A stretch of 15,489 bases of DNA from a bacterium. GTDB lineage: Bacteria > BMS3Abin14. The notes under the pieces are model-generated. The model was not told the origin of the DNA. It saw only the letters and a program-made list of their open reading frames with translations, and ran no database searches. Where the stretch lies: assembly GCA_029210545.1 (NCBI GenBank), contig JARGFV010000059.1, positions 1-15,489 on the forward strand. Direction: 5' to 3'. Shown in pieces: positions 1 through 13,816 of the stretch; the stretch's first letter is position 1; each line of letters starts with the position of its first letter. A program made the translations under genes and the position numbers.

Positions 1-86
1 GAAAGGGAAAACGACGCTTTTCCCTTTCCCCAGAACATTAAGGAGCCAGGAAAAGTCCCGCCTGGACTTTTTGCGACCCTGTCAAG
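1..86 (+). repeat. R1 extragenic hairpin repeat, left-end copy
   Basis: Two perfect hairpins are followed by a conserved tail. The first pairs GAAAGGGAAAA (1-11) with TTTTCCCTTTC (18-28). The second pairs AAAAGTCC (51-58) with GGACTTTT (64-71). The tail is GCGACCCTGTCAA (73-85). The same hairpins and tail occur at 12461-12528 and, inverted, at 15418-15489. The window starts inside the element, so its 5' part is missing. It sits just upstream of the M16 peptidase gene and probably forms part of its leader. Confidence 0.8.
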
Positions 87-5346: not shown

Positions 5347-6570
5347 TTATTCTACGTTCTCCATTGGGCCTGACCGCTCGCCGCATCCGGCTTTCAGCCG
5401 TTCCTCAAATTTCCTCACGATGCGGCGATTGACGCCAGGCATGGGCAGCGCCTCCAGTTCCTCCAGCGTCACCCATCTCGCTTCCGGATTTGTCACCGTC
5501 CCCGCTTCGCGTTTGCAGATGAACACGTGGAGCTTTACCCGGAACCGGGTGTAGGTGTGGGTAAAGATCCCCAGCTTTTCGCAAACCTGGACCCGCAGGC
5601 CCGTCTCCTCCCGTACCTCGCGAACCATGGCCTCCTCCGGGCTTTCGCCGGGAGGAGGCTTACGTATGTGCGTGTGGGCGTGGAGCGTATGTGCGTAAGA
5701 TCTGCTCTGCTTTGTTCGCTGGTTTTTCGCGTTCACGGATTCACGCACATACGCACTTTCGGACCCACGGATCTTCCCTCCCGGAAACTCCCACATCCCG
5801 GAAAAAAGGCCGCCTTGCGGCCTTTTTTGTACAAGGGCCGTTCCGTCTTTCAAGATAATACCGATAGCAGCCTCGATGTGGGTCGTCTCGGGCCTGGGCC
5901 TTTTCTGTGGGAACAGCTCCACCTGCTCCAGTCTCAAGGCCCGGCACCAGGCAGCCAGGGGACACCCGGCGCATCGGGGTGCCTTGGGTGTACAGACCGA
6001 CGACCCGAGGTCCATGAGGGCCTGGTTGAAATCGCCGGAGCGATCAGCGGGGATGATGCGGCCAAAAACCGCAGCGATACGTTTTTTATCGGAGGTGGCC
6101 AGGAGCCGGGACCAGACCCGGATGTTGTTGGCGTCCAGGGCGGGGACACGCGCCCCGTAGGCGATGGAAGCCACCGCGGCGGCCGTGTACTCTCCGATAC
6201 CGGGGAGTTTCTTGAGATCGAGGGGCTCCCGGGGAACCTGCCCTCCGTACCGGGTCGAGATCTCTTTAGCTGCTGCGTGCAGGTTCCTCGCCCGGGAGTA
6301 GTAACCGAGTCCCTCCCAGGCACGGATCACCCCCTCTTCATCGGCACCCGCCAGCGCTTTGACGGTGGGGTAGGTGCGCATCCAGCGCTCAAAGTAGGGG
6401 ATGACGGCGGTCACCGTGGTCTGCTGGAGCATGAACTCGGAAACCAGAACCGAATATGCCTCGGCAGGCTCGGCACGGGCGGTTCCGGATGTTTTGCGCC
6501 ATGGAAGCTCACGCCGGTTGGCGTCGTACCAGGAGAGTAAGGCAGCGGCGAGTCTGGATCCAGGTTTCAA
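5347..6570 (-). CDS. mutY: MutY adenine glycosylase fused to a Nudix (MutT-like) domain
   Basis: This 407-aa protein removes adenine mispaired with 8-oxoguanine. Catalytic Glu45 lies in SEFMLQQT, the helix-hairpin-helix is LPGIGEYTAA (122-131) and the catalytic Asp146 is in PALDANN. The iron-sulfur cluster cysteines are 193, 200, 203 and 209 (C-x6-C-x2-C-x5-C). A Nudix domain follows (about 232-395) with GGKI (264-267) and REVREETGL (317-325), so it may also hydrolyse oxidised nucleotides. Oddly, about 38 residues (269-306) are inserted between GGKI and PGES, splitting the Nudix box. This stretch is encoded by an R3 palindromic repeat. The start is TTG 6570, with GAGG nine bases upstream. No ATG lies in frame before residue 47, and a stop lies just upstream. 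Residue 1 onward aligns with the usual MutY N-terminus. Confidence 0.9.
   Translation of the reverse strand: MKPGSRLAAALLSWYDANRRELPWRKTSGTARAEPAEAYSVLVSEFMLQQTTVTAVIPYFERWMRTYPTVKALAGADEEGVIRAWEGLGYYSRARNLHAAAKEISTRYGGQVPREPLDLKKLPGIGEYTAAAVASIAYGARVPALDANNIRVWSRLLATSDKKRIAAVFGRIIPADRSGDFNQALMDLGSSVCTPKAPRCAGCPLAAWCRALRLEQVELFPQKRPRPETTHIEAAIGIILKDGTALVQKRPQGGLFSGMWEFPGGKIRGSESAYVRESVNAKNQRTKQSRSYAHTLHAHTHIRKPPPGESPEEAMVREVREETGLRVQVCEKLGIFTHTYTRFRVKLHVFICKREAGTVTNPEARWVTLEELEALPMPGVNRRIVRKFEERLKAGCGERSGPMENVE
5653..5766. repeat. R3 palindromic repeat inserted in frame in mutY
   Basis: GCGTATGTGCGT (5685-5696) and ACGCACATACGC (5743-5754) are 12-bp inverted repeats. CGTATGTGCGT recurs at 5663-5673. 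The stretch is a multiple of three and keeps the mutY frame open. A related element lies just upstream of mutY at 6582-6650 (shared TGTGCGTGAA, GATCTTA and ACATACGC). Boundaries are set by where the Nudix box resumes and are accurate only to a few codons. Confidence 0.7.
5802..5828. terminator. Terminator-like perfect palindrome inside mutY
   Basis: AAAAAAGGCCGC (5802-5813) pairs perfectly with GCGGCCTTTTTT (5817-5828) across a 3-base loop. It therefore has a GC core and a T6 run on both strands. It lies in the codons for Gln248 to Phe256 of the Nudix domain. The form is that of a bidirectional intrinsic terminator, but it may be a by-product of the codons for KRPQGGLF. Function is unproven. 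Confidence 0.4.
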
Positions 6571-12077: not shown

Positions 12078-12272
12078 ATTCCGGGCCGATCCATAGTCCC
12101 TTCCTTATTCTTCCTCCCCCTGCCGAAGGGGGAGGAGGAGCACTTCACCCTCCCCTTGGTCCCCTCCCCTCAGCCGCCTTCGCATAGAGCTTCGTCGGGC
12201 CAGGAGGGAGGGGGAAATTAAGGAGGTTGGTTGCTGAAAGGAGGTGGGGGTGATAGTGTTCGGACCCGGAAT
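12078..12272. repeat. R2 element, long copy
   Basis: ATTCCGGG (12078-12085) and CCCGGAAT (12265-12272) form 8-bp inverted ends. A 9-bp hairpin, TCCTCCCCC (12112-12120) with GGGGGAGGA (12128-12136), follows TTATTCTTCC as in the 3661 copy. It is about twice as long as that copy and carries extra sequence around 12138-12240. Confidence 0.65.
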
Positions 12273-12316
12273 CCGGACATCAAAATCGGGGCTTTTCATT
12301 GAACGTGATTTTGAGG

Positions 12317-12347
12317 TTTAGACTTGTACCCCGGCTATGGTTATAAT
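12317..12347 (+). promoter_or_regulatory. Possible promoter for the SPFH operon
   Basis: A perfect -10 TATAAT lies at 12342-12347 with a near-extended TGG just upstream. The -35 region (TTTAGACT, about 12317-12324) matches poorly. If used, the transcript would start near 12354 and carry both R1 modules in a leader of about 320 bases. Confidence 0.35.
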
Positions 12348-12404
12348 GGAAAGGTAGCGAAGGCAGTGTGGCTGAAACTGATAGCTTCGTAAAAAGTCAT
12401 CAAT

Positions 12405-12528
12405 GCGCCCGGATTGGGCGCCCGGATCAACGTCCGGATCGGCATGTCGGTGATCCGTGAGGGAAGGGAAAATGACATTTTTCCCTTCCCGTGGAGCGAA
12501 AAGTCCCGTCTGGACTTTTTACGACCCT
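12405..12528 (+). repeat. R1 four-hairpin module, tandem unit 1
   Basis: Four consecutive stems: GCGCCC (12405-12410) with GGGCGC (12416-12421); CGGATCA (12423-12429) with TGATCCG (12451-12457); GGGAAGGGAAAA (12461-12472) with TTTTCCCTTCCC (12479-12490); AAAAGTCC (12499-12506) with GGACTTTT (12512-12519). The tail is ACGACCCTAA. It is followed directly by a diverged second unit with the same four stems. Confidence 0.85.
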
Positions 12529-12661
12529 AATATAGCGCGCCTGGAAATGGCGCCCGGATAAGTGAGCAGAAATGTGTTACTTATCCGTGAGCAAAGGGAA
12601 AACCGCGCTTTTCCCTTTGCGTTGACAAAAGATCTCGCTTGGATCTTTTGTCCCTATCAAT
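12529..12661 (+). repeat. R1 four-hairpin module, tandem unit 2
   Basis: Stems in the same order as unit 1: GCGCC (12537-12541) with GGCGC (12549-12553); CGGATAAGT (12555-12563) with ACTTATCCG (12579-12587); GCAAAGGGAAAA (12591-12602) with TTTTCCCTTTGC (12609-12620); GACAAAAGATC (12624-12634) with GATCTTTTGTC (12642-12652). The tail is CCTATCAA. It ends immediately before the ribosome binding site AGGAG of the first SPFH gene. Confidence 0.85.
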
Positions 12662-12673
12662 AGGAGCAGGACT

Positions 12674-13816
12674 ATGACCGAAAGCGGAAACGGCGGTTCC
12701 AAGGGACCGTTTCAGGACACGCCCATATTCGGGAAGCGGGGGCTGAACCTGCCAAAGTTCCCTAAATTCCCCGGGATTCCCGGGATCAACTTCTCCTTCG
12801 GGGGAAGAAAGCCGGTGGCCCTTGTGGTGATCGTCCTTGCGATCATCGGGGTGATCTACAACCTGATGCTGGTTTATGTCGGACCCGGCGAATACGGGAT
12901 CAAGCAGGTCAAAATCGGGATCAACCGGGGCATCCAGGAGAAGGTCTACACGGCGGGCCTTCACCTGGTTCTGCCGGGGATGGAGGTCATGCACAAGTTT
13001 CCCAGGAACCTCCAGGTCTTCGAGCTCAACAACTACCCCACCCAGTACACCCGCCTCAACCGTTACGAGAAGGCGGCCCACATCCAGACCTCCGACGGGT
13101 TTTTCGTGGATGTGGACATGGCGATCCTCTACCGGATCGCCGACCCTTACCTGCTCATCACCACCGTCGGACCCGGCCTCCTGTACGAGGACAACGGGAT
13201 CGTTCCCAAGGCTGAGCCGGTGCTCAAGGAGGCCCTGGGCGAGCTGTCCACCGAGGAGTTTTACAACAGCCCCCTGAGGGTCGAGAAGACCATGAAGGCC
13301 GGGGACATGCTCAGCGCCGAGCTCAAGCCCTACGGGATAGAGGTGGTAGAAGTGCTCGTCCGCTACTTCCATTACAGCGAGGAGATCCAGAAGAACATCG
13401 AGGCCAAAAAGCTCCAGGATCAGCTGGTCTTTAAAAACCAGGCCGAGCGCCGTGCTGCGGAGGAGGGCGCCAAGCTCCAGAAGGTGATCAGCGAGGGCGA
13501 GGCCCTCGTCAAGGTCAAGCTCCAGGAAGGGCAGGCTTACAGGGTCACCCGGACCGCCGAGCGGGACCTTTACGTCAGGAAGCAGCACGCTGAAGGCGAC
13601 AAGCTGATCAAGCTGGCGGAAGCCAAGAGAACGGATCTGAAGAACAAGGCCCTGGAGGGCATGGGTTCCGAGCGCTTGGTGGGGCTGAAGATGGCCGAGG
13701 TATACGAGGGGCTCGAAGCGATCATCCTTTCCTCCGATGGTCCGAGGGGCGTCAACCCCCTCGACCTTGAGAGTACCCTCCAGATGTTCGAGGTCAGGAA
13801 AGGAGGCCGCCGATGA
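12674..13816 (+). CDS. SPFH/Band 7 membrane protein (HflK/prohibitin-like)
   Basis: This 380-aa protein has a Pro/Gly-rich N-terminal tail with a repeated KFP motif (28-37), one membrane segment (47-68), an SPFH domain (about 69-245) and a charged coiled coil (about 240-330) rich in AEGDKLI/KLAEAKR-type heptads. Such proteins form large membrane rings or cages (HflKC, prohibitins) that organise lipids and control FtsH-type proteases. The arrangement of a cytoplasmic tail, one membrane span and an outside SPFH domain matches HflK, but the tail lacks the usual HflK sequence, so I give no symbol. ATG 12674 has AGGAG (12663-12667) 6 bases upstream. Its stop overlaps the next start by ATGA. It lies directly after the R1 tandem. 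Confidence 0.87.
   Translation: MTESGNGGSKGPFQDTPIFGKRGLNLPKFPKFPGIPGINFSFGGRKPVALVVIVLAIIGVIYNLMLVYVGPGEYGIKQVKIGINRGIQEKVYTAGLHLVLPGMEVMHKFPRNLQVFELNNYPTQYTRLNRYEKAAHIQTSDGFFVDVDMAILYRIADPYLLITTVGPGLLYEDNGIVPKAEPVLKEALGELSTEEFYNSPLRVEKTMKAGDMLSAELKPYGIEVVEVLVRYFHYSEEIQKNIEAKKLQDQLVFKNQAERRAAEEGAKLQKVISEGEALVKVKLQEGQAYRVTRTAERDLYVRKQHAEGDKLIKLAEAKRTDLKNKALEGMGSERLVGLKMAEVYEGLEAIILSSDGPRGVNPLDLESTLQMFEVRKGGRR

Follow-up and report, generated by a model that had tools for sequence, protein, structure and literature searches.

A superfamily of MITEs whose five-hairpin fold is conserved and strand-specific, represented by two copies upstream of a bacterial SPFH gene

The structured region upstream of the SPFH gene

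The window analyzed in this study is the entire contig C59 of the home genome (15,489 nucleotides), which carries an SPFH/Band 7 gene on the forward strand (12674..13816); the SPFH genes here encode ordinary Band 7 proteins. A promoter-like site, TAGACT-N17-TATAAT, is located upstream on the same strand (12319..12347), and a stretch at this site, ACTTG...GGTTATAATGG, is also kept upstream of the SPFH orthologue in the relative G002. Downstream of this site and ahead of the SPFH start codon, two adjoining structured units lie on the sense strand, and the Shine-Dalgarno-like AGGAG of the gene starts a few bases past the end of the second unit.

Unit 1 (12380..12531, + strand) is a full-length five-hairpin element running from GAT to CCCTAAT, with a covariance model score of 144 bits. 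Its first hairpin and left end, H1, is GATAGCTTCGTAAAAAGTCATC (12380..12401), followed by H2 (12405..12421, GCGCCC-GGATT-GGGCGC), H3 (12423..12457, CGGATCA...TGATCCG), H4 (12461..12490, GGGAAGGGAAAA-TGACAT-TTTTCCCTTCCC) and H5 with the right terminal inverted repeat (12496..12531, GCGAAAAGTCC...GGACTTTTT), all on the + strand. Unit 2 (12534..12658, +) is a second, diverged copy without H1, ending in CCCTATC, in which H2' (12537..12553, GCGCC-TGGAAAT-GGCGC), H3' (12555..12587, CGGATAAGT...ACTTATCCG), H4' (12591..12620, GCAAAGGGAAAA-CCGCGC-TTTTCCCTTTGC) and H5' (12624..12652, GACAAAAGATC...GATCTTTTGTC) follow each other on the + strand.

The original prediction, made from the sequence of the window, had described two adjoining units with the same four stems and with changes on both arms of these stems. 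Both units are present at 12405-12652, stems 1 to 4 of that description being H2 to H5, and the paired changes between them are real (one pair and an extension in stem 2, two pairs in stem 3 and two in stem 4). The span given missed the outermost 5' hairpin of unit 1, which is the fifth (H1, 12380-12401), as well as the element ends, GAT... at 12380 and ...CCCTATC at 12658. The predicted RNA fold of 12383-12662 had a free energy of -124.3 kcal/mol (z = -8.2), and none of 200 shuffled sequences was equally stable.

Partial copies were found at both ends of the window, one at the contig start with H4-H5 and the right end (1..80, +) and one at the contig end (15423..15489, -), where the assembly breaks within the repeat. 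Both termini of C59 fall inside element copies and thus represent assembly breaks at the repeat. Many further contigs of the home genome also terminate in element copies, and the repeat limits assembly. Tandem and partial modules of the element are present elsewhere too. On the reverse strand of the window, a MutY-NUDIX-like ORF (5350-6570) has an apparent extra ~40 residues between FPGGKI and PPGESPEE, within the NUDIX domain, which are perhaps an in-frame repeat insertion.

Copy number, ends and candidate transposases

The full element is ~150 bp long from GAT to ATC and consists of H1 (GATGACTT cgcaaa AAGTCATC), H2, H3, H4 and H5, then CGACCCTATC, with imperfect terminal inverted repeats (GATnnnTCGCAAAAAGTC) at both ends, as in MITEs. 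In the home genome, BLAST with the region returned at least 40 copies and the covariance model search at least 150 matches, and the right-end pattern GGACTTTTTRCGACYCT, with up to two mismatches allowed, occurred at 340 sites in 2.72 Mb vs 2 for the reversed control. The element is a short, dispersed, multicopy sequence without a coding region, as MITEs are. Target duplication was assessed on 91 copies of the home family whose ends are clean: the 6-bp flanks were identical at all six positions in 30 of them, against 2.6 expected, with the excess confined to target positions and a target consensus of AANNTT. Units 1 and 2 are copies of this MITE with 6-bp AANNTT target duplications; an intact duplication is absent from the composite that they form in the window.

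One IS with a DUF772/DDE_Tnp_1 transposase (C1:15778-17337) was found in the home genome. This IS (L063, 15762-17422, G000:C1) lies directly beside an element copy, its ends are GACGGCATCGCAAAAAGT / GATGGACCCGCAATTAGT, and its homologues in two sister genera (G009 and G007) have the ends GACGGACTCGCAAAAAGT and GATGGCTTCGCAAAAAGT. With the NCBIfam equivalog NF033551, the transposase scored 116 bits, below the cut-off of 270, so it is named IS1182-like only. The IS is single-copy, and its flanking 6-mers, AACCTT and AATATT, differ. With ends similar to those of the element, it is a likely candidate for an autonomous relative. Another palindromic repeat, also short, whose outer end (TCGCAAAAAGTCTCTTCGAGCCATTTTGCGAGG...) is similar, was observed at G000:C3:44583, C6:15377 and C8:39107, and at G003:C1:194293, 211072 and 238455; the same transposase probably serves this repeat as a further non-autonomous element. 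At a contig end, an IS1634-type transposase fragment (L117, G000:C154:4076-4989) has its 5' part broken by an element copy. This fragment was considered as a driver and rejected, being only a gene into which the element had inserted.

Gammaproteobacterial copies have ends of another type (GGAACCTCTGATTAATT and similar), common to resident IS5-family transposons, and a target of YTAR as judged by eye. The five transposases concerned scored 326-353 bits with NF033581 (cut-off 140) and belong to the IS5 family. Their ends match those of the MITEs in G170, G306 and G348; ranked by end match, the IS of the same genome came first or second in three of the five genomes and was not the best in G126 and G372. 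The match between MITE and IS thus holds at group level, and the partnership is predicted from end similarity.

The element occurred in 11 of 12 home-family genomes (10 of 11 besides its own genome) and in none of 29 genomes of other families. Searching GTDB genomes with the H4 DNA pattern returned home-family MAGs, Mariprofundus sp. KV, a Mariprofundaceae MAG, two Gammaproteobacteria MAGs and Candidatus Adiutrix. Whole-genome searches then gave 59 matches in Mariprofundaceae S009_29, 23 in Mariprofundus KV, 16 in Centralia_MAG_32, 4 in RIFCSPLOWO2_02_FULL_61_13 and 2 in Adiutrix, and 36 of 369 sampled Gammaproteobacteria genomes had matches at E <= 1e-6. A plasmid collection searched with two gammaproteobacterial copies gave no match.

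Conservation and strand of the fold

Changes on both sides of a pair were counted in three sets of copies. Among 33 copies of the home genome, 10 of 48 pairs had changed on both sides, compared with 3.9 in column shuffles (0 of 500 reaching the observed value). The sister genera had 17 such pairs, and 32 gammaproteobacterial copies had 44 of 48, with a covariation score of 0.755 vs 0.184 for shuffled and at most 0.138 for slid alignments. In none of the three sets did any of the 500 shuffles or the slid controls reach the observed number of both-arm changes; the sister-genus and gammaproteobacterial alignments were built by Infernal, fitted to the model, and lean towards it. Because of this leaning, the stems were found again with a Watson-Crick-only hairpin finder for counting G.U and A.C pairs. 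The ~8,000 stem positions yielded 172 G.U vs 39 A.C, and a further gammaproteobacterial sample gave 31 vs 9, in copies that had been gathered with a structure model accepting G.U; since the copies are related to each other, P values are nominal. Of 224 informative cases for the H4 loop, YSACRY, 216 had C-G or T-A at positions 1 and 5 (133 and 83, against 8), and this pair closes a triloop beside an unmatched base (position 6).

G.T is steadier than A.C in single-stranded DNA as well, so the asymmetry indicates one strand and not RNA as such. Cruciform extrusion and arm-to-arm repair should be blind to strand, and the G.U excess therefore argues against either as the sole cause. Taken together, the G.U excess and the H4-loop covariation favor a single strand of + polarity, most simply RNA, or single-stranded DNA. 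The suggestion that the folded form matters was thereby supported and much extended, from two units to the home genome, the sister genera and the Gammaproteobacteria. Its caveat, that palindromes can be kept by templated repair between arms, is unlikely to be the whole cause in view of the 172:39 ratio and of the loop pair that covaries beside an unmatched base.

The elements of Zetaproteobacteria, Gammaproteobacteria and Adiutrix had the five hairpins in the same fixed order, and almost every stem sequence had been exchanged pair by pair. H4 is the most conserved hairpin of the superfamily, with a near-invariant apex. This apex, AAAA-YSACRY-TTTT (with the loop at, e.g., window 12473-12478), is the most constant part even where GGA loops have been lost. 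There is good support for a MITE superfamily in which a strand-specific five-hairpin fold is conserved. The first reading had recognized no named RNA family, which holds: in Rfam, the window had no match at the gathering threshold and 16 related loci had none at E<=1. No description of the element was found in the open-access literature on MITE and IS1182, on IS5-MITE hairpins, or on CsrA and mobile elements.

CsrA-type loops, rival explanations and related systems

In Gammaproteobacteria, the loop motif C[AC]NGGANG occurred in 31 of 33 H2 and 36 of 42 H5 loops of a first sample, and in 47 of 49 and 44 of 49 of a second, with about none in H1, H3 and H4 or on the reverse complement. Most H2 and H5 loops of Gammaproteobacteria and Zetaproteobacteria are of the ANGGA type that characterizes CsrA-binding RNA. 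A typical H2 loop, CACA-GGGA-TGTG, fits the SELEX consensus RUACARGGAUGU, and H5 (CCAGGATGG) fits the CsrB repeat CAGGA(U/A/C)G (PMC7652899). The GGA stems of the element are longer than the favored CsrA ligands given in that paper. Home-family copies had the motif in 1 of 98 H2 and 15 of 119 H5 loops, all 15 in G005 and G010 (71-78% complete), where about a third to half of the H5 loops have kept it. H2 of unit 1 occupies the position of the CsrA-type loop of relatives and is degenerate; the loops of unit 1, CCCGGATTGGG and CCCGTCTGG, lack the motif.

A CsrA gene was detected in 1 of 12 home-family genomes (G007) vs 21 of 23 others, the two exceptions being Adiutrix, whose copies are also without the motif, and G053. 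The Mariprofundaceae genome G042 combines home-type ends with two CsrA genes and has the motif in both loops of 9 of 9 full-length copies, so the transposase type can be separated from the presence of CsrA. Two genomes do not fit, as G007 has CsrA without the motif and G053 has the motif with no CsrA detected, and the association is a correlation between a few clades, largely a clade contrast. On these sequence patterns, we offer as a tentative hypothesis that the element may bind CsrA in CsrA-bearing hosts. The wider proposal, that a cross-phylum mobile superfamily borrows IS5 or IS1182 transposases, carries a five-hairpin RNA with two CsrA loops as a sponge or portable leader, and has lost these sites in hosts without CsrA, would be a shade more tentative still.

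The first reading had suggested leader RNA of the SPFH operon or DNA hairpins. The leader reading stands only as regards position, both units, in sense orientation, following a conserved promoter-like site and preceding the SPFH start codon. A cis-regulatory RNA specific to this operon, such as a riboswitch or leader, is nevertheless very improbable: the element is a dispersed mobile repeat with hundreds of copies elsewhere in the genome, Rfam gave no match, and a profile search of the fetched flanks of SPFH orthologues in G002, G003, G004 and G005 found no clear element. The SPFH leader of G002 is short and without an element. With one genome per species compared and no element found near these orthologues, the window copies are best read as an insertion in the leader of this lineage and not as an SPFH-specific riboregulator. 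A conserved SPFH-specific function is largely refuted, and a recent, copy-specific effect on the operon is possible. G001, a complete genome from this family, lacks both the element and the SPFH gene, which sets it apart from most of its relatives.

An ordinary MITE whose hairpins are kept at the DNA level only, as cruciforms, as palindromic ends used by the transposase or through templated repair, would account for H1 and H5, which are made of the terminal repeats themselves, and IS1272 of the IS1182 family has been reported to target inverted repeats (PMC5678879). Gene-relative orientation was also near random in Gammaproteobacteria, with 13 sense and 22 antisense copies between co-directional genes (n.s., crude ORF calls); a first set of 31 Gamma/Zeta copies had suggested that the sense orientation is strongly avoided (1 vs 12), which this larger sample did not bear out. 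We consider this explanation unlikely, because the three hairpins inside the element, which bear no relation to its ends, persist across phyla, G.U far exceeds A.C, GGA loops occur on one strand only, and the H4-loop pair covaries beside an unmatched base. Intrinsic termination offers another account of the spread, in which H5 and H4, with A-rich 5' and T-rich 3' arms, act as bidirectional terminators at gene ends. H5 (AAAAGTCC...GGACTTTTT) and H4 are terminator-like in composition by eye, and in 43 of 72 gammaproteobacterial cases the right-hand gene is directed towards the element, but a terminator scan of 12250-12700 found none, the home family has no excess of copies between convergent genes, and the GGA loops and five-hairpin order would be left unexplained, which makes it a quite improbable account. 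A preferred location relative to genes, expected by the first reading if the fold is functional, received a weak answer: a sense bias was seen in the home family only (42 sense vs 23 antisense between co-directional genes, p 0.025, crude ORF calls).

Considering these results, it is probable that the window holds a full and an H1-less MITE copy in the SPFH leader, mobilized in trans, with a fold selected as a single + strand. According to this model, a ~150 bp non-autonomous element would have inserted into the 5' leader of the SPFH operon, and DUF772/DDE transposases would mobilize it in trans, IS1182-like ones in the home family and IS5 ones in Gammaproteobacteria, as the likeness of the ends suggests. 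Selection would keep the fold as a single + strand, most simply as RNA within read-through transcripts, transcription of the element being predicted from its position alone. In CsrA hosts, H2 and H5 might each offer a CsrA/RsmE-type site, and the transcribed element could either bind CsrA in cis or serve to titrate it. In the home lineage, where CsrA is not detectable, these sites would have decayed, and the window copy would be at most a structured leader RNA.

Several known systems resemble the element in part. BOX of Streptococcus pneumoniae is MITE-like and has a modular build in which the number of internal hairpin modules varies, and its RNA folds are stable; it shares tandem and partial modules with the element and differs in phylum and in the modules themselves. 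To our knowledge, BOX has no CsrA-type loops. Bacterial MITEs, among which BOX is named, are IS-derived and share with the element a short, non-coding sequence, terminal inverted repeats, target duplications, high copy number, structured transcripts (predicted here) and a resident IS with similar ends (PMC10969869). The element differs in that its internal five-hairpin order is kept across phyla while stem sequences are almost wholly replaced, and in that its ends track two related transposase groups; a MITE with this combination was not found in the open-access literature. The IS1272/IS1182 and IS5 families have DUF772/DDE_Tnp_1 transposases and ends similar to those of the MITEs described here, and carry a transposase, which the element lacks. 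IS1272 has been linked to stem-loop targets (PMC5678879) and reportedly replaces the target with no duplication, whereas the home-family element duplicates 6 bp. CsrB/CsrC and RsmY/RsmZ present hairpin loops of CAGGA(U/A/C)G or ANGGAN (PMC7652899), like H2 and H5 of Gammaproteobacteria and Zetaproteobacteria. They are single-locus sRNA genes with many sites, whereas the element is mobile and dispersed, has two sites and has no known promoter, and the Rfam search of 16 element loci returned none of these families.

The superfamily is a rare case in which the fold of a bacterial mobile element is shown by cross-phylum covariation and not assumed from palindrome folding. If the link to CsrA is true, transposable elements would be carrying the sites bound by a global regulator from place to place in genomes, and hosts lacking this regulator would serve as a natural control.
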